From contig CM056573.1 in assembly GCA_029721435.1 (NCBI GenBank), forward strand, positions 96,553,947 to 96,617,946: a stretch of 64,000 nucleotides of DNA, read 5' to 3'. Origin of the DNA: Gymnothorax reevesii. Taxonomy: Eukaryota > Chordata > Actinopteri > Anguilliformes > Muraenidae. Below are positions 4,738 through 61,303 of the stretch, in pieces (position 1 is the first letter of the stretch; each line of letters opens with the position of its first letter). A model generated the notes under the pieces. That model saw only the letters and a list, made by a program, of their open reading frames with translations, was not told the DNA's origin and searched no databases. The translations under genes and the position numbers were made by a program.

Positions 4738-4908
4738 CTGGAGCAAAAATAAGAGATCTTATTGCACACAATGCAATACCCAATACATGGCAGTCCACTT
4801 ACATTCAAGCTATGAATTACAACCACCAATGTTTTGTTCAATATGCACCAAAACAACAGGTTATTGGTACAGCTTCAATACTGCCTGAATGTTGAGGATA
4901 AAGTAAAT

Positions 4909-5270
4909 CAGTGGTTCTCAGACTCAGTCCTGGGGGACCACTGTGTATGCGGGTTTTCGGTGCAACCACAAACGCAGTCCTAGAATTCTATTAAGCTGTT
5001 AATTTGTTTTAATTAGATGCATTTCATTTATTACTTGATGATAAATTTAACCATTTTGGCCATGTGTTGACTCGAGGCAAGGTGACATTGTATTACACAA
5101 GTTTTGTAATACAAGAGATGCAGTCAAAGACACTATTTTTAGGACATTTTGCCTCAAAATGTATAGGTGTGAGTTATGGTATTTGTCCAGCGGAGTACAG
5201 AGCATCAAAACTTTAGCGTGCTGTATCATGATTTTGTAAAAAGATGTTTGACGTTCCAAGATATTCATAC
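4909..5270 (+). repeat. Interspersed repeat starting CAGTGGTTCTCAGACTCAG (copy 1)
   Basis: It opens with CAGTGGTTCTCAGACTCAG and TCCTGGGGGACCACTG, a head frequent in fish genomes (hAT-like or SINE-like, class uncertain). A second copy lies inverted at 11936-12214, with similar downstream sequence (GGTTTTCG, GCAACCACAAA, and an AATT-rich body). Confidence 0.5.
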
Positions 5271-6180
5271 AATCACTTGATGTGCTATGATTTTAATTTT
5301 TTGAAATTAAAAAAAATTTTATTTTAAAATTATTTTTTTTCCGGCAATGCAACAATCTTGAAACTTCTTGTTGCACCGCTTATTTAGAATTCAGTATCCA
5401 CGTTGCTTCATTGATCTTTCAGCCCAATTACTGAAATATGGCTTTGGCAACCTCAACTTGGATCATGTTTCTCGTTGTGATATAATGTTTTTACTTACAC
5501 TCAAACCAGGGTTGCTATCAGTCAATGGGAAGAACTCTTGAGCTCTCCACTGTGATTTATGATAGTGCTTGATATGATCTGATATGTGCCAAGTCTTTAA
5601 GAACACGTTTCTGCAAACATTTTATTTTCCAACCAGAGGGCGTTTTTTTTTCACTAAAAAGAGACATTTCCCCATGCCCCCTTGGTATTTCTTTTTTCTT
5701 CCCCACAATGTTACTACGGATACATTAAAAAAGGAAAAATTTTATTTAAACAGAAAAAGGCACATCTGTGCCACCTATTGAGCATGTGTACAAAATTTCA
5801 TGAAAAATCTCAGGCGGTATCAGAGTTATGGTCCAGAGAGGATGGGGATGCCGATGCCCATGTGGACAGGAAACTGAACGAAAGTAATATGTCTGAGGGG
5901 ATACATAACTAAAGCTAGCTGAGCACAGCTAGGTCACACCATACCAATTCAATAAATTTAAGAAAATCCTCCCACCTGACTACTTCAGATTTACTTTGAA
6001 AATTGACACAAAGTTACATTGGACCTGTGCCACATTGAGGGTCAACATCTCTAATAGTTTTTTTTAATCAGGAAGAATACACAAGCCTCTCATTGTTTCC
6101 AAGAAACAGTAGGGCAAAATCCGGGAAAATGCAATTTTACACAAGTCTGCGGTCAAATTGCCAATGTATGGCAATTTTAA
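5271..6180. other. rgs6 intron without recognised features
   Basis: AT-rich sequence with homopolymer runs. The stretch near 5760-5910 reads like the edge of a tandem-core repeat (GGACAGGAAACTGAACGAAAG), but I could not place a boundary. No exon, transposase or inverted terminus was seen. Confidence 0.4.
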
Positions 6181-6189
6181 CCCTTTGTA

Positions 6190-7306
6190 TAAACTAGGCT
6201 TATGCCGTCGGAGGCGACGGCTGGGGGTATATCACCGAACGCCCCCAATCCTCCAATTCCCCAATCCTTGAATAGACCTTGAATAGACATCCATTTGAAC
6301 TTAATTTCAAGTCAATCGGTCAAATGGTTCGGAAGATATGGCCAAAATGGTAATTTTCCATCACAAAGCGCCACCTGGTGGTAAAATATTGAACCTTACA
6401 GATATGATGTCATCATGTGACATGTTGTTAGGTCATGACCCTGCAGTTGCACATAGTTTCATGTCAGTTGGAGAAATAGTTCCAAAGACATAGCAAAAAT
6501 GGTGAATTTCATGTGATAAAGCTCCACCTTGTGTCAGAATTTTGAACCAAACAGGTATAATGTCATCACGGGACACATCCTCAGGTCATGACCTTTCGTT
6601 TGCACTTGATTTGAGGTCGATCGGACAAATATTTCCAGAGATATGATAAAAACAGTGATTTTTCCAGTTTTTGGCCCCTGGTGACCAATCTAGAAATGGT
6701 AAATTGTCAAAAATCGAATCAGTTTTTCCTCTTTATGATACTTACTTGGAATTTCTAATTGCAATATTACTGCAGTTATCGCGTTAACATGTACATCAAT
6801 TTTTGGCCCCTGGTGGCCAATCTAGAGATCGTAAATTGTCCAAAATCTAATCAGTTCTTCCTCTTTATGATACTTATTTATGTGCGAAACCTTAAATTTG
6901 TAATTGAAATATTACTGAAGTTATTGCGGAACAGTGATTTTTTTCAGTTTTTGGCCCCTGGTGGCCAATCTAGAAATTGTAAATTGTCCAAAATCGAATC
7001 AGTTCTTCCCCTTTATGATACTTACTTATATGCAAAAGTTGGAATTTCTAATTGAAATATTACTGCAGTTATCGCGTTAACACTGAAATCAGTTTTTGGC
7101 CCCTGGTGGCCGATCTAGACATCATAAATTGTCCAAAATCGAATCAGTTCCTCCTCTTTATGATACTTACTTATGTGCAATATTTGGAATTTGGAATTGA
7201 AATATTATTGAAGTTATTGCGTAAACACGTAGTGCGGCGGCAGCGGCGGCGGCCGGACCAAAAACATAATATCCCCTGGAACGCCATTCGGCGTTCGGGG
7301 ATATAA
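6190..7306. mobile_element. Non-autonomous element with internal tandem array and terminal hairpin (Helentron/pearl-like layout)
   Basis: Four diverged units of roughly 130-150 bp begin TTTTTGGCCCCTGG at about 6668, 6800, 6948 and 7093, each followed by TAAATTGTCCAAAATC, TTTATGATACTTA and GAAATATTACTG. After the array come a CGGCGGCGGCCGGACC block and a hairpin: ATATCCCC (7269-7276), AACGCC (7280-7285), loop ATTC, GGCGTT (7290-7295), GGGGATAT (7297-7304). The left end near 6205 has GGCGACGG and GGGGGTATAT. A tandem core with a terminal hairpin is the layout of non-autonomous Helentrons and bivalve pearl elements; that classification is inference. Confidence 0.55.
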
Positions 7307-7310
7307 TTAA

Positions 7311-8100
7311 TTTTGATTAAGCCCATCAAAAAAATTGTACTTTATTAAACAGTGAAAAGTAAGTTGAAACTGCCATAATATTACCGGTATTAATTCTAGA
7401 ACTCCCTTAATACTGATGCCTTCAGTATTTGTACCAAATATCCAGGTCATTTCAAGGTGATACCTGTAAAAGTTGTAATAAATCACCTTGCACCGGACCA
7501 ACCAGTCACCGACTTCCTATTTGCTTCGTGAATAATCATGTACATGCGGGACATCAAGTCAGAGTGGAAGAGCACATCCAATCTAATCCATCAAAATAAA
7601 AGGTCAGCGATTGATGTTGCGTTATGACCTCAATTTGTTATGGCCCCTATTTGTTATGATCTATCAGACAGCAAGGGATGAAAGACAAAATTTTGAAACT
7701 TAAACAGATTAAATTAAACAAACCACTGACCAAGATTGAAATATTAACAAACAAAAAAAAAGAGATATTTACAGTCCCTTGAGATGGGGTTGCTTTGCGA
7801 TGTTCTGGGACAGGAAAATGCTCCAACACAGGCAAAAATCCACAAAAAGCTTCACAGGTCTTGAAAAGAGCGACAGGTCTGGCCAAATATATCCTTCCAC
7901 AATTTCTCCTTGCAATTTCTCCTATTACCTTACCCTCACAATTTTTCTCCTTATATACTCTTTTCCAGCCCCCTCTCACCTTCCAGACTTTTTTCAATTC
8001 TCTGGGACTTTCCCCTCTGAGGCATGCCCAGGACACGCACAAAACCTAGCTGCAGACTGGCTTAACAAAAAAAAGTCAGTCCTTTTTGCCGTTGCCCCCC
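7311..8100. other. rgs6 intron without recognised features
   Basis: Mixed-composition sequence whose short ORFs on both strands show no family motifs. No inverted termini or tandem structure were noticed. Confidence 0.4.
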
Positions 8101-8104
8101 CCCC

Positions 8105-8850
8105 GGCCACCCTTTGGAGGTGCCATTGTGCGAATGGCCCGTGGACTCAGTTTGACGCACTGGGAGCGCAAGGCTCTGGCTCAGGTTAGGTTTGCGCAGT
8201 TAATGTGGTTTTGAGCACAATGGAAACATCAGAACCCAGAGTCAAATGGCTACCGGCAAAGTCTTACTGACAGCATCTCAAGCCGATCACAGAGAGGAAA
8301 ATACATCGCAAGCGAGCTGAATGCTGAGGAGCTGAGATCTTTGAAGCAATGCCCCAGAAAAAAAAACATGCTTGGAGACTGGAAGATCTAGTTTCGTTTT
8401 AATACGGCCACATTGGGCTAACAATAGCAACTGCAGATTTATCGTCAAACAGTTAAGAAATTGTTTTTGCTCATCTCTGTGGACTGTAAAGTGTATACCT
8501 GCTGTTCTTTTAGTGTGGTGTTGATTTAAAATGACAAGGCTTACATCGTTGAATTCTGTGGACTTTTCTTTTTCGTTTGAGCTATCGTTTGTATGCATAG
8601 CACAAATTCAATAGAAATGCTAGTGACTCAGCGCTGATATGATTTTATCCTATGTTTTGCTCCATGTGTATTTACCTGCTTAGTGCTTGAATTGTGTTTG
8701 GTTGAGGTAAAAATGGTCAACATGAGCTTTTTGCTGAGTTTCTTCGCGTAAAGTGGATAAGCCACATGACAATGTTGCAATTAGGAAACATGCTGTATTC
8801 TTTATGCGTAACGACCGCCCCCGGTGCCGGGGACTTTCTAGTTTAAGGGG
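8105..8850 (+). mobile_element. piggyBac-like or related dispersed repeat, copy 1
   Basis: The sequence from AATGGCCCGTGGACTCA, through TGACGCACTGGGAGCG, CAGCTGAGATCTT-type and TTTGTATGCATA blocks, to GGGGACTTTCTAGTTTAAGGGGTTAA recurs inverted at 55622-56690. Its right end, read inward, is TTAACCCCTTAAAC followed by a GGCACCGGGGG palindrome. A TTAA edge with CCC is a piggyBac-type terminus. The left terminus is not certain. Confidence 0.5.
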
Positions 8851-9639
8851 TTAAAGTTCATAAAGTTTTTTTTACCACAAAATTAATGCAAAACAGGTGT
8901 GAGTCATTGTAACTTGCTTTGTTGTCCAACTCTTCATTTTCAAATAAATGAAAAGGTCTAGTGAAAATGTATCAATTATACAAATTAAGAGCCCGCTCAT
9001 TTTTTTTTAAATTCATTGGTAAATTTTTGTTTTAATTTCTCTCTTTATTCAGCTGTTTCCCATATAGGAATCATTCCATGAACATGGCACAATTTGAGTC
9101 CCTCTCACCTCTTTAGGTGTATTTTATCTATTGGGTCACCAACATTTATATTTTTACACATACATTTAAATGTCTCCTTTAATACAGTGTAAAAAACAAG
9201 TTAAATTTTACCTTTTTTATGAGAATTAATATAGTTTTTTTCAGTTGACACCACCTATTTTGTCAAGTCCTCCATGACCTTGATGGAAGTATACTTTGAA
9301 AATACCAAATAAAACTTAAAGTCAATAAATTTTGATGTCAACCAAAAGATCTATTTGTGCTCTTTTGCTGGTGATGTTTTTTTTTTTCAAAATTAATTGA
9401 TAATTATTCATTAAAATCAAATTATTTAGTTCTGTGCCTGAATAACCCCTCAACCTTGTTACACAAATGATTCTTCCCCCATAAATACAATGGTATGATC
9501 CATATGTACATCAGGAAGTGACATCACTGAGGTCTTTTGGACAACAGGACAAGAGAAATGGGCAGGTAGCTCCCTTCTTTTCCTTTATCTTAGTCATTTA
9601 TCTTGTGATATTGCGGTCGTCAAACTCAATGACTCAACA

Positions 9640-10090
9640 GCGTAACATGAAAAAAAGGTGGCACATGGTGGTGCAAGAATAATGGTGTGGGCAAGCATAT
9701 GCCATGGATAGCATACCCGTCTGCATTTCATTGAGGGTAACTTGAACGGGCAGTGGTACCGCGATGAGATCCTGAGGCCCATAGTCGTACCATTCGTGCA
9801 ACTCCATCACGTGACATTCCAGCACGATAATGCCTGGCCACACACTGCCCCGATCTGCTCAGAGTTTCTTGATGAGGAGGATGTCCCTGTTCTCATTTGG
9901 ACAGCATATTCATCTGATATGTCGCCAGTTGAACACCTTTGGGATGTTCCGGATCAGCGGGTTAGACAATGTGTTCCGATTCTAGAAAATGTGCCAGCTC
10001 CGAGTTGCGCTGCAGGAGTAATGGGACAACATTCCACAGGCAACTATTGAAAAATCCTGTTGACTCCATGTGCCGGAGGTGTACCGCTTT
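9640..10090 (+). pseudogene. Tc1/mariner transposase, C-terminal half
   Basis: The frame contains ARIMVWASICHG, then WYRDEILRPIVVPF, FQHDNAWPHTAPICSEFL and PVLIWTAYSSDMSPVEHLWD. FQHDNA is the second catalytic Asp block of the DDE motif and SPVEHLWD contains the terminal Glu region. The N-terminal helix-turn-helix domains are absent, a stop interrupts near 9710, and the frame breaks after about 10010, where diverged remnants of the C-terminus continue. The family resembles the one whose N-terminal half is at 54604-54924. The element is inactive and lies inside the rgs6 GGL intron, antisense to the gene. Confidence 0.75.
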
Positions 10091-11935
10091 ACATGATGCC
10101 GATGGTGAACACACTCATTACTGACTGCTATGAATTCTGCCCGCTGAACCCTGGTGCAGAGCCACTGATATTCTCAGAATTATGACACTCCCATTGACTC
10201 TCGTATGCAAAACATGGCGGCGCACTGCCGGGTACTGGAAACTTCCGATAGTTCCAAAAGAGGATTCTTGCAGCTTTGTACCGATTCACTTCCATTGAGA
10301 CAACAACGACAGTAAGTGATAAAATATTGAAGTCTTATGATTCACGAAATGTATACGTATATCATACCTAGTCTAACTTGATCAGCTGTTTTAAGTTTAA
10401 TCATAAACGGTTGCGGAGTTTCTAACTCCGTTTAGCTCTCAATAACCATTTCGAATAAGACCACTTGTTATTCATAAAATTGGATGAAACCACATATTAG
10501 GACTTTGACAACTGACGTGTCACCCATCATGTTTTAGCCAGTTCTTTGAAATTGTATCTGTCAATTTGCATTTGCCATGCCAGGCACTGTTAGCTTTCTA
10601 GCGATCTTGCTGTAGTCAGCTAGCTGTATTATATGCCATGTTGTATTTCGCAAAAAGATGGTCTTTTAAATGATTTACTCATTTTATTGTGTCATGTAGG
10701 CTTACCGTTCACACATTTGAGCAGTTACACTTATTTAAGTTGTCCCACATCACCATAAAAGTTTGACCTCTGTAAAACGTATGTAAATAATGTAATTCAT
10801 TAAGAGAAATACATTTCTGGCATTTGTGTGTGGTTTAATTTAATATTTACCATTCAGAAATGCAATCACTGCTGTCTGTCCCATAGGAGATTATGACAGT
10901 GCAGAGTTTGTTTAGAACTATATCGCTTCCCCACAAATCACGTGACCACTCAAGCAACAAAGTCAATGAGTGGCGCCACTCTGTATCACTCTGCCCTGGT
11001 GGGTTCAGGCTGTGATAACTCATGAATTGTGCACAATAAATTGTTAGTCATGTTTCTGTTGCTTGAATATTAAGGCAAGAATAAAATAATAATTGTTTTG
11101 TTGAAATATTTCTCAATTGATAAAAAATAATTTGAAAAAAATTACTTCGAGCATTTATATTTTTGTTCAGAGTATGTTCCATGTTTAAGCTGTGATGAAG
11201 ATGGCACCAACAACAGCAGCAGAAAGGCAGAAGTACAAAAGTAGTTTCGGGCGCCTTAAAGCTGATCCTGAAGGAAGGGAGAGATACCTGCTGTATAAAA
11301 GCATATTCGACCAGATGAGGGTTGGCTCTTATGCACACGCACACGCACACACACACAATATGTTGTTGTAGTTTGTTTTTAATTTCGGTTAATAATCTTA
11401 TCCAGTGAATTTGAGAGTAAAAAGGCAACTATTAATATGTAAAGCTGTATTTGTCCCTTCAACCCTGTAACCATCTTCAACCCTGTGACCCTCATCTCAA
11501 CCCCGTCACACCTACATGTTCTTTCAATATTTTTAAAAAATGTATTGATAAAATTTAGTTTGCTGACTTCTGTCTAAAATGTTGAGAGCTATCACAAGAT
11601 CATAGATTTTGATTAAAATTCTTCAGTTAAACAACATTTCTGATGAAAAATGAGAAGAGTGCTTTCACGCATAGGTACATTTCAGGCTTTAGTACAGCAA
11701 AAATGTGAGATTTTATCTCATTTTTGTATTTCCTATTATTAAATTAGTGTGGGGGACATCAGATTAATATACAAATATTGCTTTCTTTAGAAATACATTT
11801 TATGATCATATTCAATGAGCTTCCATCAAGGACATAACGGGGTTGAAGAATAACATCTTGAAATAATGACCAATAATAATAGAGAGCTAATGCCTGAGAT
11901 GGGAAAATATGTTTTTCTGATAGTTGAATATGTTC
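10091..11935. other. rgs6 intron without recognised features, with a short CA microsatellite
   Basis: Largely AT-rich sequence. A (CA)n run sits at 11334-11358. No coding signal or element terminus was recognised. Confidence 0.4.
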
Positions 11936-12214
11936 TTAATGCTGAGGGATATACATACAAATAATACATTTTGGTAGAAAATTTGAAAATGTCGAAGTCC
12001 AATTTGAACCATTCTCATGGAATGACTCATAGAATGATGTGAATATGGAAATTATATTGTTCACTGCAAGCATAGCAATTTCTGACAATTTTGCGTGAAA
12101 AGGTAATGAAGTGCAATTACCCTCATTAAAATTCTTGGGGTTGCATTTGTGGTTGCAGCGAAAACCAGCATTCACAGTGGTCTTCCAGGACCGAGTTTAA
12201 GAACCACTGCAGTA
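11936..12214 (-). repeat. Interspersed repeat starting CAGTGGTTCTTAAACTCGG (copy 2)
   Basis: Inverted relative to 4909-5270: on the minus strand it begins GCAGTGGTTCTTAAACTCGG and continues through ACCACTGTGAATGC and GCTGCAACCACAAATGC. The two copies are diverged throughout, so they are old. Confidence 0.5.
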
Positions 12215-13405
12215 AATGAACGCAAGAACATTTAAAAGTCAAATTGCACATCTATTACTTTGACACTTTAAGCCAACAAACAATCATTCTGAAACAGGGA
12301 TCGATTTTAGAGCTCCTGAAAAATCCATATCAAAACCTGCTGACTAATAACTTGTGTTACAAATACAATATTTTAGCTTAATTACAGTACATCTCCTGTG
12401 GGTTTCACAAACAAAATGCTTGCATTCTGATGTCATAAATGATTGGTCCATATTATCAGCTGATCACAAACCCTGTTGCTGTGTTTGTGGCTTCCAGGGT
12501 ACACTGAGTAAATTTTGTTTTCGCCCCTCTAAAAGACTGCGTCACAGGAATGATGAATATGTAGTCTGAGACACAGAATCCAACTGGAAGCTAAAACAGA
12601 CACAATTCTCCTGAGACCACTACTTAGGATGCCTCACAGTCGATCCACTGACACCACAACAGACCCCACACCGCAACCCCATATCAGCCTGCCGATAAGT
12701 CCCTCTGCAAACAGCCTTAAGCCCAACTTGCATATCAATCACGCTGACCTCTGTCATCCTCGAGCTGACTGGGAAGGATCATTCCCACCACTGGCTCTGA
12801 AAGGAATGCTCTAATCAATGTGGCCTGGAGCCAGTGGACCTCTGATTTGTTCTTGGGGTTGATGGGCATGGGGGAGGGGTATCAGAGACACTGTCACCAG
12901 GGGAAGGTGCGCACAAAGGAAGCAACATGGAATTCAGCAAAATGTGGTCAGGTCAGCGGATATGCAAGAACCGGGGGGGTAGAGTCCATCAGTCTCGAGC
13001 ATGTTTGTATTTGGGGTGGTATTGTGGGTGTGGGGGTTCCTGTATATTTGGGCCACCGTTACAGGATATCAACCACACACAAGCCAAACACAAGCATAAT
13101 TCGAGTAGAAATTAAAACACAATGAAACAATGGAGCGACTGTGCCTTCTTTTTCATTGTCCTGATGGCTTCCATATTTTTACAGCAAATACCCTTTAAAA
13201 AAAACAGCTATTTTTGAAAGAAAATAACCATAATGACAAACACATAGCAATACAAAAGGGACGGCCTGATTAGTTTTATGCATATGATTATATTTTCATA
13301 TTTAAAATTTGCTTAGAGACGAGAACAGGCAGGCTGGTAAATTATGTGAATTGACCTGACAAGAACGACAAACAAGTGGCCTGAAGGAAAAGCAGCTCTA
13401 AAAAA
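12215..13405. other. rgs6 intron flank of the minisatellite, no recognised features
   Basis: Ordinary unique-looking sequence up to the first partial 28-bp unit. ORFs here are short and lack motifs. This is the distal, non-exon end of the array. Confidence 0.4.
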
Positions 13406-16400
13406 ATCTCAATCTGCACTCACCTGTCTATGCATCTCAATCTGCAATCACCTGTCTATGCATCTCAATCTGCCCTCACCTGTCTATGCATATCAATCTG
13501 CTCTCACCTGTCGATGCATCTCAATCTGCCCTCACCTGTCTATGCATCTCAATCTGCACTCACCTGTCTATGCATCTCAATCTGCACTCGCCTGTCTATG
13601 CATCTCAATCTGCCCTCACCTGTCTATGCATATCAATCTGGACTCACCTGTCTATGCATCTCAATCTGGACTCACCTGTCTATGCATCTCAATCTGCACT
13701 CGCCTGTCTATGCATCTCAATCTGGACTCACCTGTCTATGCATCTCAATCTGCACTCGCCTGTCTATGCATCTCAATCTGGACTCACCTGTCTATGCATC
13801 TCAATCTGCACTCGCCTGTCTATGCATCTCAATCTGGACTCACCTGTCTATGCATCTCAATCTGCCCTCACCTGTCTATGCATCTCAATCTGCACTCACT
13901 TGTCTATGCATCTCAATCTGGACTCACCTGTCTACGCATCTCAATCTGCCCTCACCTGTCTATGCATCTCAATCTGCACTCACCTGTCTATGCATCTCAA
14001 TCTGCACTCACCTGTCTATGCATCTCAATCTGCCCTCACCTGTCTATGCATCTCAATCTGCACTCACTTGTCTATGCATCTCAATCTGCCCTCACCTGTC
14101 TATGCATCTCAATCTGGACTCACCTGTCTATGCATCTCAATCTGCACTCGCCTGTCTATGCATCTCAATCTGCACTCACTTGTCTATGCATCTCAATCTG
14201 CCCTCACCTGTCTATGCATCTCAATCTGGACTCACCTGTCTATGCATCTCAATCTGCACTCGCCTGTCTATGCATCTCAATCTGGACTCACCTGTCTATG
14301 CATCTCAATCTGCACTCACTTGTCTATGCATCTCAATCTGCCCTCACCTGTCTACGCATCTCAATCTGGACTCACCTGTCTACGCATCTCAATCTGCCCT
14401 CACCTGTCTATGCATCTCAATCTGCACTCACCTGTCTATGCATCTCAATCTGCACTCACATGTCTATGCATCTCAATCTGCCCTCACCTGTCTATGCATC
14501 TCAATCTGCACTCACTTGTCTATGCATCTCAATCTGCCCTCACCTGTCTATGCATCGCAATCTGGACTCACCTGTCTATGCATCTCAATCTGGACTCACC
14601 TGTCTATGCATCTCAATCTGGACTCACCTGTCTATGCATCTCAATCTGCACTCGCCTGTCTATGCATCTCAATCTGGACTCACCTGTCTATGCATCTCAA
14701 TCTGGACTCACCTGTCTATGCATCTCAATCTGCACTCGCCTGTCTATGCATCTCAATCTGGACTCACCTGTCTATGCATCTCAATCTGCACTCGCCTGTC
14801 TATGCATCTCAATCTGCACTCACCTGTCTATGCATCTCAATCTGGACTCACCTGTCTATGCATCTCAATCTGCACTCGCCTGTCTATGCATCTCAATCTG
14901 GACTCACCTGTCTATGCATCTCAATCTGCACTCGCCTGTCTATGCATCTCAATCTGGACTCACCTGTCTATGCATCTCAATCTGCACTCACCTGTCTATG
15001 CATCTCAATCTGGACTCACCTGTCTAAGCATCTCAATCTGGACTCACCTGTCTATGCATCTCAATCTGCACTCACCTGTCTATGCATCTCAATCTGGACT
15101 CACCTGTCTATGCATCTCAATCTGGACTCACCTGTCTATGCATCTCAATCTGCACTCACCTGTCTATGCATCTCAATCTGGACTCACCTGTCTATGCATC
15201 TCAATCTGCACTCGCCTGTCTATGCATCTCAATCTGCACTCGCCTGTCTACGCATCTCAATCTGCACTCACCTGTCTATGCATCTCAATCTGCACTCGCC
15301 TGTCTATGCATCTCAATCTGGACTCACCTGTCTATGCATCTCAATCTGCACTTGCCTGTCTATGCATCTCAATCTGCACTCACTTGTCTATGCATCTCAA
15401 TCTGCCCTCACCTGTCTATGCATCTCAATCTGGACTCACCTGTCTACGCATCTCAATCTGCACTCACCTGTCTATGCATCTCAATCTGCACTCACCTGTC
15501 TATGCATCTCAATCTGCACTCACCTGTCTATGCATCTCAATCTGCCCTCACCTGTCTATGCATCTCAATCTGCACTCACTTGTCTATGCATCTCAATCTG
15601 CCCTCACCTGTCTATGCATCGCAATCTGGACTCACCTGTCTATGCATCTCAATCTGGACTCACCTGTCTATGCATCTCAATCTGCACTCGCCTGTCTATG
15701 CATCTCAATCTGGACTCACCTGTCTATGCATCTCAATCTGGACTCACCTGTCTATGCATCTCAATCTGCACTCGCCTGTCTATGCATCTCAATCTGGACT
15801 CACCTGTCTATGCATCTCAATCTGCCCTCACCTGTCTACGCATCTCAATCTGGACTCACCTGTCTACGCATCTCAATCTGCCCTCACCTGTCTACGCATC
15901 TCAATCTGCACTCACCTGTCTATGCATCTCAATCTGCACTCACCTGTCTATGCATCTCAATCTGCCCTCACCTGTCTATGCATCTCAATCTGCACTCACT
16001 TGTCTATGCATCTCAATCTGCCCTCACCTGTCTATGCATCGCAATCTGGACTCACCTGTCTATGCATCTCAATCTGGACTCACCTGTCTATGCATCTCAA
16101 TCTGCACTCGCCTGTCTATGCATCTCAATCTGGACTCACCTGTCTATGCATCTCAATCTGGACTCACCTGTCTATGCATCTCAATCTGGACTCACCTGTC
16201 TATGCATCTCAATCTGCACTCGCCTGTCTATGCATCTCAATCTGGACTCACCTGTCTATGCATCTCAATCTGCACTCGCCTGTCTATGCATCTCAATCTG
16301 GACTCACCTGTCTATGCATCTCAATCTGCACTCGCCTGTCTATGCATCTCAATCTGGACTCGCCTGTCTATGCATCTCAATCTGGACTCACCTGTCTATG

Positions 16401-17544
16401 CATCTCAATCTGCACTCACCTGTCTATGCATCTCAATCTGCACTCACCTGTCTATGCATCTCAATCTGGACTCACCTGTCTATGCATCTCAATCTGCACT
16501 CACCTGTCTATGCATCTCAATCTGGACTCACCTGTCTATGCATCTCAATCTGCACTCACCTGTCTATGCATTTCAATCTGGACTCACCTGTCTATGCATC
16601 TCAATCTGCACTCGCCTGTCTATGCATCTCAATCTGGACTCACCTGTCTATGCATCTCAATCTGCACTCACCTGTCTATGCATCTCAATCTGGACTCACC
16701 TGTCTATGCATCTCAATCTGCACTCGCCTGTCTATGCATCTCAATCTGGACTCACCTGTCTATGCATCTCAATCTGCACTCGCCTGTCTATGCATCTCAA
16801 TCTGGACTCACCTGTCTATGCATCTCAATCTGCACTCACCTGTCTATGCATCTCAATCTGCACTCACCTGTCTATGCATCTCAATCTGCACTCACCTGTC
16901 TATGCATCTCAATCTGGACTCACCTGTCTATGCATCTCAATCTGGACTCACCTGTCTATGCATCTCAATCTGGACTCACCTGTCTATGCATCTCAATCTG
17001 CTCTCACCTGTCTATGCATCTCAATCTGCACTCGCCTGTCTATGCATCTCAATCTGCAATCACCTGTCTATGCATCTCAATCTGCTCTCACCTGTCTATG
17101 CATCTCAATCTGCACTCACCTGTCTATGCATCTCAATCTGCACTCGCCTGTCTATGCATCTCAATCTGCAATCACCTGTCTATGCATCTCAATCTGCACT
17201 CGCCTGTCTATGCATCTCAATCTGGACTCACCTGTCTATGCATCTCAATCTGGACTCACCTGTCTATGCATCTCAATCTGCTCTCACCTGTCTATGCATC
17301 TCAATCTGCACTCGCCTGTCTATGCATCTCAATCTGCAATCACCTGTCTATGCATCTCAATCTGCTCTCACCTGTCTATGCATCTCAATCTGCACTCACC
17401 TGTCTATGCATCTCAATCTGCACTCGCCTGTCTATGCATCTCAATCTGCAATCACCTGTCTATGCATCTCAATCTGCACTCGCCTGTCTATGCATCTCAA
17501 TCTGGACTCACCTGTCTATGCATCTCAATCTGGACTCACCTGTC
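13406..17544 (-). repeat. 28-bp minisatellite, about 148 copies, each unit a copy of the rgs6 5' splice site
   Basis: On the rgs6 strand the unit starts GTGAGTCCA (or GTGAGTGCA), continues GATTGAGATGCATAGACAG and then repeats. The TCTC landmark at 13407 and at 17523 lie 4116 bp apart, exactly 147 x 28, so there is no net indel. The unit joins the 62-nt exon without a gap: the exon ends GACAG and intron GTGAGT opens the first unit, so the unit spans an exon-intron junction (5 exon-like plus 23 intron bases). By hand count about 30 units read GC instead of GT at the donor, about 8 have A instead of G just before the GT, and a few have other changes. Larger periods exist, for example 420 bp (15 units) between 15616 and 16036. 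The plus-strand reading frames through it are not genes. Confidence 0.98.
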
Positions 17545-17601
17545 AGCGACTTTGGACACCTTCATACAATGTCTGTCCAGCTGAGTGTTTAAAAATGAGA
17601 T
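17540..17601 (-). CDS. rgs6: rgs6 coding exon (first half of GGL domain), 62 nt, donor fused to minisatellite
   Basis: On the minus strand a long pyrimidine tract and acceptor TTCTCTTCTCCCAG precede 20 codons plus two bases. The translation reads ISFLNTQLDRHCMKVSKVAD, matching the helical part of the R7 GGL domain (RGS6 has an FLNxQxDRHCLKMSKVAES-like stretch). The exon ends GCTGACAG, and the two leftover bases AG join the leading T of the 4627-4737 exon to give Ser. Its donor, CAG|GTGAGT, is a perfect U1 consensus and is also the first unit of the 28-bp minisatellite at 13406-17544. There is no ordinary intron sequence between donor and array. Reading past the donor gives an in-frame TGA at once (AG|G TGA). 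The GGL domain binds G-beta-5 and stabilises the protein. Confidence 0.96.
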
Positions 17602-18225
17602 CTGGGAGAAGAGAAACAAAAAACAAACTGTCATGTGCTCTGCTCCCAAAAGATGTGACATGAATCAAAAATTCCTGATACATGAGAATAACTGGACAAA
17701 TGGTGGTGGCGTTGGCACAGTATATCCCGAAACTAAAGAACTCCCCCCCCCTTTCACAAACATTATAATTCAGCTGGGTGGTGACGCTACAGGTTTTTGT
17801 GTATATGGTCCCGAAAGTCGGCAGGGGAACTACTGTGGGCTCCAGGAATGTTCACAGCAAATTTTACCCAATTGCATTTTTTGTAAAATAAAATTTTTCC
17901 TGGCTGCAGTGTTACAGGAACAGTTACAGTACTACGAGAACAATAGGACTGTTATTTTATGTAACAAGACATTCACTGCAAAGCTTATCTGGGCCCGTAT
18001 TCACAAAGCATCTTAGCGCAAAAAGTAGGTCCTAACTGCCGAATTTAGGAGAAACTCCTAAAAAAAATGGGCATGTCAGTCATAAATTTAAGACTCCTAA
18101 TAATTTTTACTAAGTGTTATTCACAAAGCATTTTAGGCCTAAAAGTAGCTCCTAAGTCTGGGAGGGCTTAAAAGTAGTCAAGAGGACTCCTAACTCGCTA
18201 AAACCTATTCACAAAGAATCGGAAA

Positions 18226-18648
18226 ATGGCTGCTGCTGTTGAAAGACGGAATGACTTGGAAATTCTGAATGGTGCGCAGTTGTTGAAAAGATATCGGATC
18301 AACCTTGAAGGGATTTTATTTGTTGTTGACTTGGTGGGGGAGAGAATTACGCCTCCAACCATGAGAAACAATCTAATAAGCCCCAAAATAAAAAGTTTGA
18401 AAACAGTTTGTTACTTGGCCACCGGAAAAATGAGACTTTGCACCGCGGACAATTTAGGGATTTCACAATCATATGTCAGTCGCTCAATTCAACAAACAAT
18501 CAATGCACTCTGTGAACCTCATATCATTCGACAGTTTATCCGATTTCCAATGGACATTTGCCAAAAACACAGAATCAAACTTGTATTCATGCACATCTCG
18601 GCATGCATGAAATATTTTATTAGACAATTGAGCGAGGGATACATTTAA
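18226..18648 (+). pseudogene. Harbinger transposase, N-terminal part (HARBI1-like)
   Basis: The ORF opens MAAAVERRNDLEILNGAQLL and contains a LLKRYRINLEGILFVVDLV helix region, then CYLATGKMRLCTADNLGISQ and SYVSRSIQQTINAL. The GISQSYVSR helix-turn-helix-like block followed by an HIIRQFIRFP segment is characteristic of HARBI1-type transposases. The DDE nuclease domain that should follow is absent: the frame runs into unrelated sequence and stops after 140 codons, against about 350 in full-length proteins. Confidence 0.85.
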
Positions 18649-37086: not shown

Positions 37087-38684
37087 CATCGCCCTCCATA
37101 ACTATTGGCAGCCCTGGTTAAGATGTGTTCTTTAGCTTCTAATAAATTCAGTTTATTTTCTAAATAAGATAGGACAACATTGAAAAAAAGAGGAAAATCC
37201 AACCTTTATTTCAAGTGCATTTATTCAGTGGGAAAAAAAAATCCCACAATAATGAATAATTCTTTTACATCAAATCATGCGTGCCACAATTATTAGCACC
37301 CCTGATGTTAATAGTTTGTACAACCCCCTTTTGCCAACAAAAAAGCACCTAATCTTCTTCTATAATGTTTCACAAGATGGGAGAATACAGAAAGAGGGAT
37401 CTTCGACCATTCCTCTTTGCACAATCTCTCTAAATCATCCAGCGACCTGGGTCCTCTCCTCTGCACTTTCCTCTTCAGCTCACTCTGCAGGTTTTCAATG
37501 GGGTTGAGGTCTGGGGACTGAGATGGCCATGGGAGGAGCTTGATTCTGTGTCTGGTGAACCCTTTCTGTGTAGATTTGGCCACATGTTTAGGGTCATTAT
37601 CTTGCTGAAAGACCCAATGACGACCCATCTTCAGCTTTCGGGCAGAGGCCACCAGATTTTGATTTAAAACGTCCTGGTATTTCAAAGTGTTCATAATGCC
37701 ATGCACCCTAACAGGGTTCCTGGGGTCTCTGGAAGAGAAACAGGCCCACAGCATCACCGATTCTCCCCCATACTTCACAGTGGGCATGAGGTGCTTTTCT
37801 GCATACTCATCTTTTGTGTTCCACCAGACCCACTTAGAGTGTTTGTTGCCAAAAAGCTCTATCTTGGTCTCATCTGACCAAATCAATGGTCCCAGTTGAA
37901 GTCCCAGTGCCGCTTAGCGAACTCCAGACATTTGCATTTATGATTGTGAGTGAGAAAAGGTTTTTTCCGTGCATGCCTCCCAAACAGCTTTTTGGCATGT
38001 AGACAGCGTCTGATGGTTGTTTTGGAGACTTTGTGACCCCAAGATGCAAATCTTTGTTGCAATTCTTTAACAGTGAGCTTTGGAGAACTTTTTATTTCTC
38101 TTACCATCCTTCACACTGTGCGGGGTGGCAAAATAACCTTGCATCCTCATCCAGGCTTGTTTGTCACTGTTCCAGTTGTTTTAAACTTCTTAATGATTCC
38201 TCTGACAGTAGATATGGGCAGGTGCAGGCGAGTGGCTATTTTCCTGTTGCCATTGCCTGACTTGTGAAGGTCAACACACATCTTTATTACTTGAATGAAG
38301 TGTTCCTTTGTCTTTCCCATGTTGAAGAGTGGATAAGAGAAATGCCCTCTGTGTTACATCATATTTATACCCCAGGGAAACAGGAAGTGTTGATTTACTA
38401 ATTAGATGTTCCTAGATACTCTGATCAACTTTGTTAACTACTGTAGAAATGACAGAAATACTTCAAATACATTTATTTCCAAGGAATTGTTAATTGTGGA
38501 AAAGGTGATTTTATGAAAAATAATTATTTCTTAGTCAGGGATTTTTTTTTTCCCCTTAAAATTCACTTGAGTCGAAGGTTAAATTTTTATACAATTTTCA
38601 GTGTGAGAGTATGCTTCTGCGATAAAAATTGAATTTATTTTAAGGCTTTTAACACATCTTAACCAGTAATTATGGAGGGCACTG
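37087..38684 (-). mobile_element. Tc1 element nested in the piggyBac-like MITE
   Basis: TA target duplications at 37085-37086 and 38685-38686 flank termini CATCGCCCTCCATAACTATT and, inverted, CAGTGCCCTCCATAATTACT. It encodes a Tc1 transposase on the minus strand and is essentially full length at 1598 bp. Confidence 0.93.
37308..38320 (-). pseudogene. Tc1 transposase, full length but broken
   Basis: The minus-strand start at 38320 reads MGKTKEHFIQVIKMCVDLHK, followed by the paired helix-turn-helix region. Downstream frames give MIWSDETKIELFGNKHSKWV, WVFQQDNDPKHVAKSTQKGF and LPWPSQSPDLNPIENLQSEL, which hold the DDE triad (Asp in WSDE, Asp in QDND, Glu in PIEN). Breaks: two TGA stops (about 38145 and 38109) at positions where the family usually has Arg, consistent with CpG decay, and a frameshift near 37885. 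The C-terminus ends GAFLLAKGGCTNY. It uses a cut-and-paste TA-targeting mechanism but is now inactive. Confidence 0.92.
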
Positions 38685-39315: not shown

Positions 39316-40903
39316 CAAAACTCAAAACCAGTGAAGTTGGCACGCTATGTAAATCGAAGATAAAAACAGAATACAATGATTTGCAAATCGTTTTCAACTT
39401 ATATTCAATTGAATGCATTGCAAAGACAAGATGCTTAATGTTCAAACTGAGAAGCTTTTTTTTTTTTGCAAATAATCATTAACTTAGAATTTAAAGGCAG
39501 CAACACATTGCAAAAAAGTTTTTACCACTGTGTTACATCGCCTTTCCTTTTAACGACACTCAGTAAACATTTGAGAACTGAGGAGACCAATTTTTGAAGC
39601 TTTTCAGGAGGAACTTTTTCCCATTCTTGCTTGATGTACAGCTTAAGTTGTTCAACAGTCCGGGGTCTCCGTTGTCGTATTTTACGCTTCATAATGCGCC
39701 ACACATTTTCAATGGGAGACAGGTCTGGACTACAGGCAGGCCAGTCTAGTACCCATACTGTTTTACTATGGAGCCATGCTGTTATAACACGTGCAGAATA
39801 TGGCTTGGCATTGTCTTGCTGAAATAAGCAGGGGCGTCCATGAAAAAGACGTTGCTTGGATGGCACATATGTTGCTCCAAAACCTGTATGTACCTTTCAG
39901 CATTAATGGTGTCTTCACATATGTGTAAGTTGCCCATGCTTTGCGCACTAATACACCCCCATACCATCACAGATGCTGGCTTTTGAACTTTGCGCCTATG
40001 ACAGTCCAGATGGTCCTTTTCCTCTTTGGTCCGGAGGACACCACGTCCAGTTTCCAAAAACAATTTGAAATGTGGACTCGTCAGACCACAGAACACTTTT
40101 CCACTTTGCATCAGTCCATCTTAGATGAGCTTGGGCCCAGCGAAGCCGTCAGCATTTCTAGGTGCTGTTGATAAATGGCTTTCGCTTTGCATTGTAGAGT
40201 TTTAACTTGCACTTGCAGATGTAGCTTCGAACTGTAGTTACTGACAGTGGTTTTCTGAAGTGTTCCTGAGCCCATGTGGTGATGTCCTTTACACACTGAT
40301 GTCGATTTTTGATGCAGTACCGCCTGAGGGATCGAAGGTCACGGGCATTCAATGTTGGTTTTCGGCCTTGTCGCTTACGTGCAGTGATTTCTCCAGATTC
40401 TCCGAACCTTTTGACGATATTACGGACCGTAGATGATGAAATCCCTAAATTTCTTGCAATAGCTCGTTGAGGAATGTTGCTTTTAAACTGTACGACAATC
40501 AGCTCACGTATTTGTTCACTAAGAGGTGACCCTCGCTCCATCCTTGTTTGTGAATGACTGAGCATTTCAGGGAAGCTACTTTTATACCCAATCATGGCAC
40601 CCACCTGTTCCCAATTAGCCCGTTCACCAGTGGGATGTTCCAAATAAGTGTTTGATGAGCATTCCTCAACTCTCTCTGTCTTTTTTGCCACTTGTGCCAG
40701 CTTTTTTGAAACATGTTGCAGGCATCAAATTCCAAATGAGGTAATATTTGCAAAAAATTACAAAGTTTACCTGTTCGAACATTAAGTAACTTGTCTTTGC
40801 AGTGATTCAATTGAATATAGGTTGAAAAGGATTTGCAAATCATTGTATTCTGTTTTTATTTACGATTTACACAACGTGCCAACTTCACTGGTTTTGGGTT
40901 TTG
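39316..40903 (-). mobile_element. Tc1 element with ~200-bp inverted ends
   Basis: TA at 39314-39315 and 40904-40905 flank termini CAAAACTCAAAACCAGTGAA and, inverted, CAAAACCCAAAACCAGTGAA. Similarity between the ends continues for about 200 bp, so it has long inverted repeats. At 1588 bp it is full length. The flanks join to copy-A-like sequence, confirming it as an insertion. Confidence 0.93.
39522..40531 (-). pseudogene. Tc1 transposase, full length but frameshifted
   Basis: The minus-strand frame begins MERGSPLSEQIRELIVVQFK and contains ISSSTVRNIVKRFGESGEIT and RKRQGRKPTLNARDLRSLRR, the two helix-turn-helix motifs with GRKP linker. Other frames follow with [59 protein letters not shown] and WPACSPDLSPIENVWRIMKR. 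The order is complete, but at least two frameshifts break it, near 40160 and 39800. The first catalytic Asp (normally in WSDE) lies at a break: VFCGLTSP shows a substitution. Confidence 0.92.
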
Positions 40904-45824: not shown

Positions 45825-47401
45825 GTGATTCAAGTATGTGCCGCGCCCTCAAGAGAGACCTTGTCTGGTCCAGAGGACACCGATGGCCCCCCTGCTGGCC
45901 GGGTGAGCAGGAGGCGGGCTGCCATAACCCCACTGCTGGAACAAAGAGCCCCTCCAGGAAGTGAGACAAGTGAGGATGACCCCAACTTGTCAGAGTTCAT
46001 GCGAAGCCACAGTGGTCCACCAGAGGGGGCTACTGAGTTTAGCCGAGCCCAGCACGAAGATCCCAATCTGGTCCAAGCATGGAAAGCCGTAAGCCACGAG
46101 GAGGTAAGCCCACCAGTTTTTCCGCACTTTATGGTGAACAATGGGCTATTATACAGGGTAATTAGGAAGAATGGTGAACTGTGCAATCAGCTACTGGTGC
46201 CAAAGACTTATGTTTCCAAGGTGCTCTACTTGGCACACTCCCACCCTCTTGGAGCCCACCTGGGGGCTGAAAAGACGTATGAAAGACTGACCATGAGGTT
46301 CTACTGGCCAGGGGTAAAGAGAGCTGTGGAAGACTACTGTAAACACTGCGCCGAGTGTCAACTCCACAGCCCAAAGGTATCGTATCACAACCCTTTGATA
46401 CCCCTGCCGATCATTGATGTTCCCTTTAAACGGATAGGGATGGATATTGTAGGTCCCCTGCCGAAGTCCAGTCGAGGTCATCGGTACGTTCTCGTCATCC
46501 TGGACTACGCCACTCGGTATCCCGAAGCCATTCCCCTGAGGACAGCAACGGGTAAGACAGTGGCTAAAGAACTGTTCATACTGTGCAGTAGAGTGGGAAT
46601 ACCAGAAGAAATATTGACGGACCAGGGGTCATGTTTTACGTCAAAGGTAATGAGGGCATTGTGTCAACTGTTGAAAGTCAAACAGGTAGGAACCTCTGTT
46701 TACCACCCGCAGACTGACGGGCTTGTAGAGCGTTTAACAAAACCCTGAAGCAAATGATGAGGAAGCTAATAGAGAGCGATGCTAAAGATTGGGACCAGCT
46801 ATTGCCATATCTACTGTTTTCTATACGGGAAGTACCGCAGGCCTCCACTGGCTTCTCACCCTTTGAGTTACTGTATGGCAGGAGACCACGTGGACTACTG
46901 GACCTAGCCAAGGAGGCGTGGGAACAAACACCTACGCGACACACTACCGCGATCGAGCATGTGGAGAAAATGCACCGCCGGATGGCCCAGATCTGGCCCG
47001 CAGTGAGGGAACACATGCGCCAGGCACAGGAGGCCCAAGCTAGGCTTTACAACAGGGGAGCCCAGGTGAGAGAATTCAACCCGGGGGATAAGGTCATGGT
47101 GTTGATCCCCACTCAAGAGTGCAAATTTCTAGCAAAATGGCATGGGCCGTATGAGGTGCTGGAAAGGATCTCCCCGATCAATTATAAAGTAAGGCAGGTT
47201 GGGAGACGGCAGAACACCCAGATATACCACGTTAATGTATTAAAAAGATGGTATGAACCCAACCAGGTTCCGTTAACCGCCTTCGCTAACTGGCCTCCGC
47301 CTGGGCCTCCCGACATCCTCATGGGCGACCAACTTTCCCCTCACCAGGTCCAAGAGCTGAAGGAGCTGTTAAATCGGAATAGGGACGTCTTTTCTGACTA
47401 A
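45825..47401 (+). pseudogene. Gypsy integrase (zinc finger, DDE core, GPY/F domain), one frameshift
   Basis: Frame 1 (45825-46748) has the zinc-binding part HSHPLGAHLGAEKTYERLTM with CKHCAECQ, and core motifs FKRIGMDIVGPLPKSSRG (first Asp), GIPEEILTDQGSCFTS (second Asp) and TSVYHPQTDGLVERL (catalytic Glu region). A frameshift near 46745 leads to frame 2 (46754-47401) with DWDQLLPYLLFSIREVPQAS, GFSPFELLYGRRPRGLLDLA and the C-terminal GPY/F domain WHGPYEVLERISPINYKV. It integrates element cDNA into host DNA. The following protein is RT, not an LTR, so the order is IN-RT. Confidence 0.9.
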
Positions 47402-48733
47402 CCTGGGCGAACTACGGTAGTCACCCATGACATTGTTACAGAGCCAGGAAAGATGGTGAGGCTGAGACCCTACCGGATCCCAGAAGCCCGAAGGGAAGCC
47501 ATCCGTGAGGAGGTACGTGCTATGTTGAAGATGAATGTCATTGAGGAGTCTAACAGTGCCTGGCGGAGCCCAATTGTGATGGTACCGAAACCGGATGGCT
47601 CATTACGGTTCTGCAATGATTTTAGGAGATTAAATGAAATCTCTATGTTTGATGCCTACCCAATGCCCAGGGTAGATGAACTCCTGGAAAGACTGGGGCC
47701 AGCTAGGTTCATCAGTACTCTGGACCTAACAAGGGGGTATTAGCAGGTACCCCTGACTACCCAAGCCAAAGAGAAGACTGCGTTTGCAACCCCTGACGGA
47801 CTGTTCCAGTATAAGGTACTTCCATTTGGGGTCCATGGAGCCCCGGCCACGTTTCAACGCCTAATGGACCGAGTCCTAAGACCCCACAGTGAGTATGCCG
47901 CATCATACTTGGACGACATTGTAGTGCACAGCCCAGACTGGGAGACCCATCTGGAACGCTTGGAAGCAGTCCTGGGGGCCTTACGAACTGTGGGGTTGAC
48001 GGCCAAAGCAGCTAAGTGTCGCCTTAGTCTGGAGGAGGCCCACTACCTTGGATATACGGTGGGAAGGGGCTGCGTGCAACCTCAGGCGTCAAAGGTGGAG
48101 GCCATAGCCACGTGGCCAAGGCCAGAAACTAGAAAACAGGTGAGGACCTTCTTGGGTCTAGTGGGGTATTACAGACAGTTCGTACCAAATTTTGCTTCTC
48201 TTGCTGCCCCGCTGTTTGACCTGACAAAGAAGGAGAGTAAACACAGAGTTTGCTGGACAAGCGAGGCTGAGGAAGCCTTCCACTCCTTAAGAGAGGCACT
48301 GTGTCACGAGCCTGTCCTGGCCACGATAAAGTTCTCCTTACCCTTAATTCTCCAGACGGACGCTTCGGATATCGGCTTGGGGGCGGTCCTGTCACAAGTC
48401 AAAGACGGAGTGGAGCAACCAGTGACCTACATCAGCTGTAAGTTGCTCAAACGTGAGCACAACTATGCCACAATTGTAAAAGAATGCTTGGCAATTAAGT
48501 GGGCTATAGAGCACTTGAAATACTATTTGACGGGACGAGAATTTACTCTGATAACCGACCATGCGCCACTAAAATAGATGTCACTGAATAAAAACAAGAA
48601 CTCTCGAATAACCAGATGGTTCCTTGAGTTACAGGATTATAGGTTTAAGGTGGAACACAGAGCGGGGAAACACCATGGAAACGCGGATGCCCTGTCTAGG
48701 AGACCCGAATGCCTATGGTCGCTTCCTGACCGA
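47402..48733 (+). pseudogene. Gypsy reverse transcriptase and RNase H, three stops
   Basis: One frame contains RPYRIPEARREAIREEVRAM, SPIVMVPKPDGSLRFCNDFR, a stop at 47741-47743 where a Trp or Tyr codon is usual, VLPFGVHGAPATFQRLMDRV, the catalytic YLDDIVVHS (about 47909), then RNase H LILQTDASDIGLGAVLSQ, ITDHAPLK with a stop at 48575-48577, and HGNADALSRRP. A third stop, at 47399-47401, separates integrase from RT. There are no frameshifts within this part, so it decayed mainly by point mutation. Copies element RNA to DNA and degrades the RNA strand. Confidence 0.92.
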
Positions 48734-48760
48734 GGGACTCGGATGTTGAGGGGGAGGGAG

Positions 48761-49227
48761 TGTGGCACCCCGAGTGCTTCTCGGGGCCCCACTAATTCAA
48801 CCTGGCACTCAAGAGCACATGGCAGGAAGAAACCACAGGGCTATGTGATTGACAATCAGTATTTTCCTGCAGACATGTTGGCTAATTGGCTAATTGATTG
48901 TTAAGGGGGCAAACCTGGGCACCATTGATTGAATGAGGACTAGGTCTTCAAAAAGGCTAAGCTGGCAGTGTGGTGGGGGTTCTTTTTTCACCAATGTCTG
49001 TCTCCCCAGCACTGTGTGAAGACTGGCAGGCGGCGGAGTAACCCCAACCCCAGAGAATTGGAGGCCCTCAAGACCTGCGACTAGTGTGGACGGATTGTGT
49101 TGTTTTGTTGGTTTTTGGCCCCTGCCCCCTTCGCTCACTGGAGTATTTGTGAAACCTGAGAGAAATAAATCAAGTCTAATTTTGTTTCCACCGCATTGTT
49201 TGCAGTATGTCTTCTTGAGCCCCCACA
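48761..49227 (+). repeat. 3' LTR of the truncated Gmr1-type element
   Basis: Starts TGTGGCACCCCG right after purine tract GAGGGGGAGGGAG, ends CCCCACA, and has AATAAA at about 49164-49169. TGTGG/CCACA are inverted LTR ends. The partner 5' LTR is not in the window. Confidence 0.7.
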
Positions 49228-56690: not shown

Positions 56691-56726
56691 CACGACCATA
56701 TAAACACTTAACTGGTTAGTTTGTGG

Positions 56727-57394
56727 TGTTACGACAGGGGCATAGTAGGTCATAATTTATGGAAATGTGTGTGTTTGTATTTCCCGCCTCCTTGTGGCAG
56801 GCTGGTGCTGTTTTGTTTGTGCTCTCCTCTGTTCAGTAGGTGTGTCGGCCGATGATTGGTTCAGAAACTGATGCGCTGCTGTTAAAGGGGGACATGCCGG
56901 TACCAGCGGAACTCTCCTCTTTTTCCCGGCTTACAACGAGACCGTGCCACGCTGTCCCAACTTCGTTGTGTAGTGCTGTGTTCTAAAAAGTCTGTGCTGT
57001 GACCAAACCTGTTACTTACAAAATATAGATACCTGTTTTTGCTCTAAAAAGCAGTCCTGGTAGCTGTAGGGGTGGGAAGCCCATTTTGTTTCTAAACACC
57101 ACATTTCTCTCTTGTTTATGATAGGGAGTCAGGTGAGCTACCTGTCTTTTTGTTTTTATTATTTTCTTTTGTGCGTAGGTAAGCGAGGTTGCTCCTTGTC
57201 CATTTTGTTTGTTATTTTGGGCCATGCTCACCCTGATGTTCTCTACCTAACTTATTGTGCGCAACGAATAAACCGTTCTTTTTTGGACTGCATCTGCCGT
57301 GGCACTGGTCGTCCTTGGGAGCGGGGAAAGAGGGGAGTCGTTTTTTTCTTTTTTTTATGTTGTGTTCTGGTTTTCCCCCGAACCGGGCATAACA
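56727..57394 (+). repeat. 5' LTR, 668 bp
   Basis: Starts TGTTACGACAGGGGC, ends GGGCATAACA, and has a polyadenylation signal AATAAA at 57267-57272. TGTTA...TAACA are the inverted LTR ends. Confidence 0.95.
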
Positions 57395-57399
57395 TAATG

Positions 57400-57411
57400 T
57401 GGGGGCTCGTC
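57400..57411 (+). promoter_or_regulatory. Primer-binding site, tRNA-Pro type
   Basis: TGGGGGCTCGTC, six bases after the 5' LTR, equals the first 12 bases of the primer site complementary to the 3' end of tRNA-Pro, as used by several gypsy elements and gammaretroviruses. Confidence 0.75.
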
Positions 57412-57469
57412 AGTTTTCCCTCATGTGTTGTTGGGTAAGTTTTTTTTTGTTTTTTTTTCATAAGGCACG

Positions 57470-58583: not shown

Positions 58584-58643
58584 TTGCCAGTTGTCCTGTG
58601 TTAAAACGAGATCACTTCGCCTGTTGGATTAATTCAGAGTGAA

Positions 58644-59492: not shown

Positions 59493-59785
59493 AAAAGCGA
59501 TATGACAAAACATCTGTCAGTCGTAGTTTTAAACCTGGTGACTGGGTGTTAGTGCTGTTGCCTGTTGTTGGGTTCAGTCTTGAAGCAAAGTTCTGTGGAC
59601 CGTATGAGGTGCAGCAAAAATTGAGTGACACCGATTACATTGTTAAGACACCTAATAGGAAGATAAGGTCTCGAGTTTGTCATGCTAATATGTTGAAGCC
59701 ATATGTTGTCCGCAATGAATCCAGCGAGTCTGATACTAGTCCTGAGATATCTGTTGATCCGGAGTGGTCGCGTCCTCCCCTTACT
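59440..59785 (+). pseudogene. Integrase C-terminal (GPY/F) domain upstream of RT
   Basis: ARESLSTAQTNMKKRYDKTS, FKPGDWVLVLLPVVG and FCGPYEVQQKLSDTDYIVKT, with HANMLKPY, are the hallmarks of the gypsy integrase C-terminal domain. It lies immediately upstream of the RT, the reverse of canonical gypsy order. The frame changes near 59780. Confidence 0.92.
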
Positions 59786-61253: not shown

Positions 61254-61303
61254 GTATCAAACATTTCTTTGGGGGAAGAAATGTTTGTTCTTAGGTGGGG
61301 GGG

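Follow-up and report, generated by a model that had tools for sequence, protein, structure and literature searches.

The rgs6-like gene and its exons

The window (the whole stretch of DNA analyzed, 64,000 nt) carries on its minus strand five co-linear exons, each with AG at its 5' side and GT at its 3' side, which by homology are exons of an R7-family RGS gene. Three of them lie upstream of the tandem array that is the subject of this report, at positions 53312-53231 (82 nt, with its start set at AG), 30817-30743 (75 nt) and 20577-20479 (99 nt). The fourth (17601-17540, 62 nt; ISFLNTQLDRHCMKVSKVAD + AG) encodes part of the GGL domain and has as its own donor the first unit of the array, and the exon after the array (4737-4627, 111 nt) encodes the final part of the same domain and can be skipped with the reading frame preserved. 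The array-bearing intron between these two exons (4738-17539, minus strand) is 12,802 nt long, with the array at its start, and the intron upstream of the GGL exon is 2,877 nt long.

Spliced in silico, the five exons give one continuous reading frame. The resulting protein, a query whose first two residues and last residue are not wholly exonic, gives an ungapped alignment with RGS7 from the PDB (E 5.1e-60), including across the array intron, and four distinct PDB sequences (three RGS7 and one RGS9) were matched at E up to 0.01. Against Pfam, the joined exons match GGL over the whole profile (E 2e-16) and the C-terminal part of the DHEX domain in RGS_DHEX (E 2e-14). Taken alone, the 20 residues of the GGL exon match RGS7 only weakly (best E 0.72), so that the exon assignment rests on the joined exons. 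No convincing match to a DEP or RGS-domain exon was found in the window by tblastn with RGS6 and RGS7 queries. In local alignments of unequal length with the human sequences, the 75-nt exon is 96% identical to RGS6 and 64% to RGS7; the corresponding figures are 69% against 30% for the exon of 99 nt, 71% against 58% for the GGL exon of 62 nt, and 53% against 59% for the exon of 111 nt. The 82-nt exon was compared with RGS7 only. Of the four exons set against both proteins, three fit RGS6 better than RGS7 and the 111-nt exon fits it worse. The original prediction that 17540-17601 is the GGL exon of rgs6 is upheld by homology (joined exons to RGS7, Pfam GGL) as regards an R7 RGS GGL exon, and the gene is likely rgs6 rather than RGS7, as judged by pairwise identity.

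A 28-bp minisatellite that begins at the exon-intron junction

The array is a 28-bp minisatellite (13406-17539, minus strand; consensus GTGAGTGCAGATTGAGATGCATAGACAG) of 147 full units and an 18-nt partial unit at its intron-distal end, and it measures 4,134 nt when counted from intron base +1 (17539). Tandem Repeats Finder (TRF) reports a single array at 13406-17544 with a period of 28, 147.8 copies, 94% matches and 0% indels. Unit 1 starts at the donor of the GGL exon, and the bases common to the exon end and the unit end are exactly five, GACAG. TRF and our parsing of the units therefore agree with the earlier claim of an array of about 147 copies that adjoins the exon in this phase and overlaps it by GACAG. 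The full units fall into 20 types, the three commonest with 45, 30 and 29 copies, and both edges of the array pass into non-repeat sequence, the far edge by way of the 18 nt of unit followed by a T run. At the exon-proximal end (16923-17544, minus strand) there is an exact duplication in which 17544-17203 is the same as 17264-16923, that is, 342 nt at an offset of 280 nt or 10 units, and the identity extends 5 nt into the GGL exon. A block of 10 units beside the exon has thus been duplicated in tandem, either recently or possibly in the course of assembly.

A single long higher-order period was considered and set aside because the signal is weak: the best lag autocorrelation, at lag 90, is 0.298, and shuffling puts the 95% level of the maximum at 0.289, with lags listed to 99 and shuffles covering only those to 59. 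A gene on the plus strand was likewise dismissed, as the long open reading frames there reflect a repeat that is almost free of stops in three frames. Rfam gave no match at gathering score in the window.

We propose that the array probably arose by tandem amplification of the exon-intron junction, with the shared GACAG marking the overlap. In the simplest history a first 28-bp duplication would have taken in 5 bases of the exon and 23 of the intron, or would have come from slippage between two copies of GACAG, and expansion would then have followed. The trace left by such a founding duplication amounts to only 5 common bases, three of which (CAG) are expected at any donor. That same donor consensus is what one would expect if the minisatellite had instead arisen inside the intron and acquired its GACAG and its phase at the exon by chance or microhomology, an origin with which the far edge, where the array stops in mid-unit after 18 nt, is also compatible, as is the finding that six exact pieces of the unit, together with the far-edge sequence, are absent from the window outside 13380-17570, so that this search gave no source of the unit elsewhere in it. 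Against such an origin, when the 4.1-kb array was placed at random in the window, its edge came within 5 nt of an rgs6-like exon edge (10 edges) in 0.37% of trials, although the figure rises to 3.75% when an edge of any one among the window's 11 arrays is accepted (12 TRF rows, two overlapping rows merged), and we regard this origin as highly improbable. It is very unlikely, too, that the array is an artefact of assembly that inflated or misplaced the units of the array or the 10-unit duplication next to the exon. The exact recurrence of 342 nt, 5 exonic bases included, 280 nt further on is what such an error might produce, but the units form a varied series of different types and are not copies of one block, and the array continues into non-repeat sequence on both sides.

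Donor sites in the array

The array presents 148 9-mers in donor phase, of which 79 are CAG/GTGAGT. GC donors account for another 31 (30 GCGAGT and one GCAAGT) and the other 38 are altered elsewhere (19 GTGAGG, five GTGATT, five GTGAGA, and nine in which GTGAGT follows an A or T at -1). The original prediction spoke of some 147 further near-consensus donors behind the real one; an array of donor-phase sites is indeed there, but only 78 of the 147 downstream sites match CAG/GTGAGT. Nor is CAG/GTGAGT a perfect match to U1, as had been stated, since from the sequence of the U1 5' end the Watson-Crick optimum is CAG/GTAAGT. The difference is small in energetic terms, and with the same flank a simple calculation of the U1 duplex gives -14.1 kcal/mol for CAG/GTAAGT and -14.0 kcal/mol for CAG/GTGAGT. 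By such a calculation 78 of the 147 downstream sites form a duplex with U1 at least as stable as that of the first donor. The donor of unit 2 is identical in sequence to that of unit 1, and the donor of unit 6 pairs with U1 slightly better than the first (-13.3 versus -12.2 kcal/mol).

Six of the downstream donors would give an exon shorter than 250 nt (90 to 230 nt), and in two of them, those of units 2 and 6, the full CAG/GTGAGT is present. Full sites occur in two of nine units in the zone of units 2-10, three of 10 in units 11-20, 69 of 118 in units 21-138 and four of 10 in units 139-148, and the comparison of units 2-10 with units 21-138 gives a Fisher p of 0.043 when units 11-20, a copy of units 1-10, are left out. 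The far end is also low, so that an edge effect may suffice, and this weakens the idea that selection has removed competing donors close to the exon; diverged edge units may explain the scarcity of full donors near the exon as well as selection would. An excess of variation at the donor positions was not upheld (seven of 14 substitution types in nine of 28 positions, p 0.13). The local accessibility predicted for the first donor is 0.26, below that of the 14 other donors sampled (0.31-0.73), and the idea that RNA structure favors the first donor was dropped because this prediction points the opposite way.

Coding consequence and proposed splicing

The exon ends in GAC AG, such that use of any later donor reads GAC AGG TGA and meets an immediate stop at intron bases 2-4. 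In all seven lengths translated (1 to 147 units), read-through past the first donor gave the same TGA stop at nt 64, and the conserved protein join ...KVAD-SLMSFTEQ... is regained through the first donor alone. The mechanism that we put forward is that splicing uses the first donor, that the downstream donors are silent or rarely used, and that each use of one of them would add 28n nt, meet the TGA and yield a transcript that is truncated or degraded by NMD. Exon definition is to be expected because long introns (2,877 and 12,802 nt) lie on both sides of the exon, and it would favor the donor closest to the upstream acceptor. In a minigene study (PMC9225289), the upstream one of two identical strong donors was used exclusively in five exon-definition minigenes, and larger exons were mostly skipped when both donors were weakened. 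The same study reports that human donors of matched strength in the exon-definition class show a preference for the upstream donor, smaller exons being favored, and that, when all human events are taken without matching, use of the downstream donor is somewhat higher, at about 60%. On the strength of these published minigene data, competition among the donors of the array should favor the first. Our preferred reading is that of a junction-derived minisatellite that is tolerated and mostly passive, with the first donor in use and those downstream silent or rare, and we consider it likely to be correct. It is also favored by the normal splicing reported for lancelet genes with duplicated junctions (PMC3087553, PMC3902484), by the low level of the one-unit retention product in ABCA7 (2 ± 1%; PMC5954066), and by the fact that no more than two of the six donors giving an exon below 250 nt are full sites. 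Some observations sit less easily with passivity. The donor of unit 2 equals the first and that of unit 6 exceeds it in pairing with U1, the first donor has the lowest predicted accessibility of those sampled, and human IFI6 is reported to use downstream repeat donors, so that arrays of this kind are not always silent.

Three regulatory roles have to be weighed against a passive array. The human exon behind the RGS6 form with an incomplete GGL is, we take it, exon 13. By analogy with ABCA7, the length of the array or the factors bound to it could promote skipping of the 111-nt exon at 4737-4627 with no shift of donor, giving an RGS6 isoform with an incomplete GGL. The ABCA7 study reports that skipping of exon 19 rises with the length of its variable number tandem repeat (VNTR), which also correlates with lower expression (PMC5954066), human RGS6 transcripts have been cloned with an incomplete or an intact GGL (PMC8805202), and the 111-nt exon stays in frame if skipped. 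Yet the ABCA7 array lies in a C-rich region and its authors invoke specific binding motifs, whereas on the transcribed strand the rgs6 unit is not rich in C; the acceptor of the 111-nt exon lies 8.7 kb beyond the array; and the protein lacking the complete GGL went undetected in vivo in the human RGS6 study and is probably unstable (PMC8805202). Tuning of this kind is in our view unlikely. Were the array to work like the VNTR of ABCA7, the number of its copies would determine what fraction of RGS6 is unstable and GGL-incomplete. The fuller version, a length-variable rheostat in which copy number would shift the ratio of complete to incomplete GGL by way of skipping of the 111-nt exon and hence the Gbeta5-dependent stability of RGS6, is a speculation by analogy to which we give little credence.

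The donors themselves might act instead if those downstream were often used, the stop-containing products lowering rgs6 output as the array lengthens. The 78 of 147 sites that rival the first in U1 duplex stability would allow this and the extended exons meet TGA at once in the seven lengths checked, whereas under exon definition donors of matched strength favor the first (PMC9225289) and the product that retains one unit in ABCA7 amounts to 2 ± 1%, is out-of-frame and is unaffected by array length (PMC5954066). The scarcity of full donors in units 2-10 compared with units 21-138 also speaks against frequent use, although the far end has four of 10 and an edge effect may explain the scarcity; dosage control by unproductive splicing is a doubtful proposition. 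Almost certainly wrong, in our estimation, is a role as a U1 platform, in which the array would hold U1 on the pre-mRNA and so suppress premature polyadenylation in a long intron, or would titrate U1. All 16 AATAAA or ATTAAA hexamers of the intron do lie downstream of the array (from +6157 onward) and the intron outside the array is without any CAGGTRAGT, but such hexamers are common by chance. We return, then, to the tolerated and mostly passive junction-derived array, which offers a natural test of donor choice by the spliceosome, with an identical donor 28 nt downstream of the first and dozens more beyond.

Comparison with known systems

By its unit size, its start at a real donor and a flanking exon that is genuine by homology, the rgs6 array is a junction-spanning donor minisatellite. 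Neither the principle nor the scale of such an array is new. The original prediction knew of no described case on this scale, and this does not hold, given that the ABCA7 VNTR reaches about 427 copies and IFI6 and the lancelet "mirages" have been published as well. We found no further case of a donor array in the available portions of PMC2812944, PMC12783039, PMC3618361, PMC8724738 and PMC3045353, and the matches listed in the open-licence literature included neither an rgs6 case nor a donor array in fish, a result that argues only weakly for their absence.

Introns that derive from tandem arrays are said to have been described by Zhuo et al. in 2007. These resemble the rgs6 array in being repeats with splice signals; the rgs6 units differ in that AG/GT is present but its AG is not preceded by a pyrimidine tract, and the rgs6 intron interrupts a conserved domain and so would appear not to be a new intron. 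The units of human IFI6/6-16 are reportedly short, at 12 bp, and frame-keeping, so that their donors yield protein isoforms. The 1995 account of that gene reportedly describes a minisatellite giving multiple splice donors, with two downstream units used and three mRNA species, and so a tandem repeat that multiplies a splice donor as in rgs6, where in contrast the units are 28 bp and meet an immediate stop.

The mirages of lancelet genes (Adh, globin and TnC, with similar repeats in PGBD5) are tandem duplications across an exon-intron boundary, and the splicing of genes with such duplicated junctions is reported as normal (PMC3087553, PMC3902484). Like the rgs6 array they have boundary-spanning units with splice signals in many of them, but their units are of 10-160 bp, in three to six copies in the cases with a stated count and at either intron end, whereas rgs6 has one array on the donor side with 147 copies. 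At intron 4 of irak3 in trout, likewise a fish, 15-17 nt from the junction side of an exon are repeated directly beside it, but on the acceptor side, with exonic bases and in four copies (PMC6763605).

The closest likeness is to the VNTR in intron 18 of human ABCA7 (PMC5954066). Its 25-bp unit opens with the two bases of the exon 18 donor, and its length runs from 298 bp to 10,678 bp, or about 12 to 427 copies. As in rgs6, the unit is of similar size, the array begins at the GT of the exon donor and runs into the intron, and retention of one unit is out-of-frame. The ABCA7 VNTR differs in lying in a C-rich region and in its host intron, which would be shorter judging from a reported eightfold increase, and it is strongly polymorphic and tied to skipping of the downstream exon and to disease risk, while the rgs6 array is known from one sequence. 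The rgs6 array adds a case in a conserved signalling gene, probably of a fish, to the small set of splice-donor minisatellites, and together with ABCA7 it allows one to ask whether the length of a donor array generally affects skipping of the exon that follows.

Open reading frames and repeats around the array

The complement of the 28-bp minisatellite that starts at the donor of the 62-nt rgs6-like GGL exon is nearly free of stop codons in three frames on the plus strand (13350-17663), giving open reading frames of 1437 and 1399 aa together with 541 and 854 aa in the third frame. The sequence of these long frames is mostly repeat, and gene finders could be misled by them. Another plus-strand ORF (18202-18648) lies about 600 bp away from the GGL exon; by eye we take it to resemble the N-terminus of a Harbinger/HARBI1-type transposase, and a Pfam search with it gave no match at E 0.001.

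The intron that holds the 28-bp array also contains two diverged tandem arrays found by TRF (6292-7228, units of 153 and 145 bp), whose units carry GCGCCACCTGGTGG or GGCCCCTGGTGGCC, motifs that to the eye appear CTCF-like.

Tc1/mariner-like transposase pieces with DDE_3 and HTH domains (37308-37913 and 39522-40724, minus strand) are located inside an rgs6 intron. An LTR-type element on the plus strand (56725-61601) has two direct repeats of 300 nt, spaced 4,577 nt apart, and between these repeats lie one ORF in which a SCAN domain is recognised (E 8.4e-13) and another with RT-RNase H; the high identity of the repeats (99%) suggests a young insertion. It is the second such element, the other being Ty3/gypsy-like (45825-48904, plus strand), with reverse transcriptase downstream of the integrase ORF, which is the Gmr1-like order.
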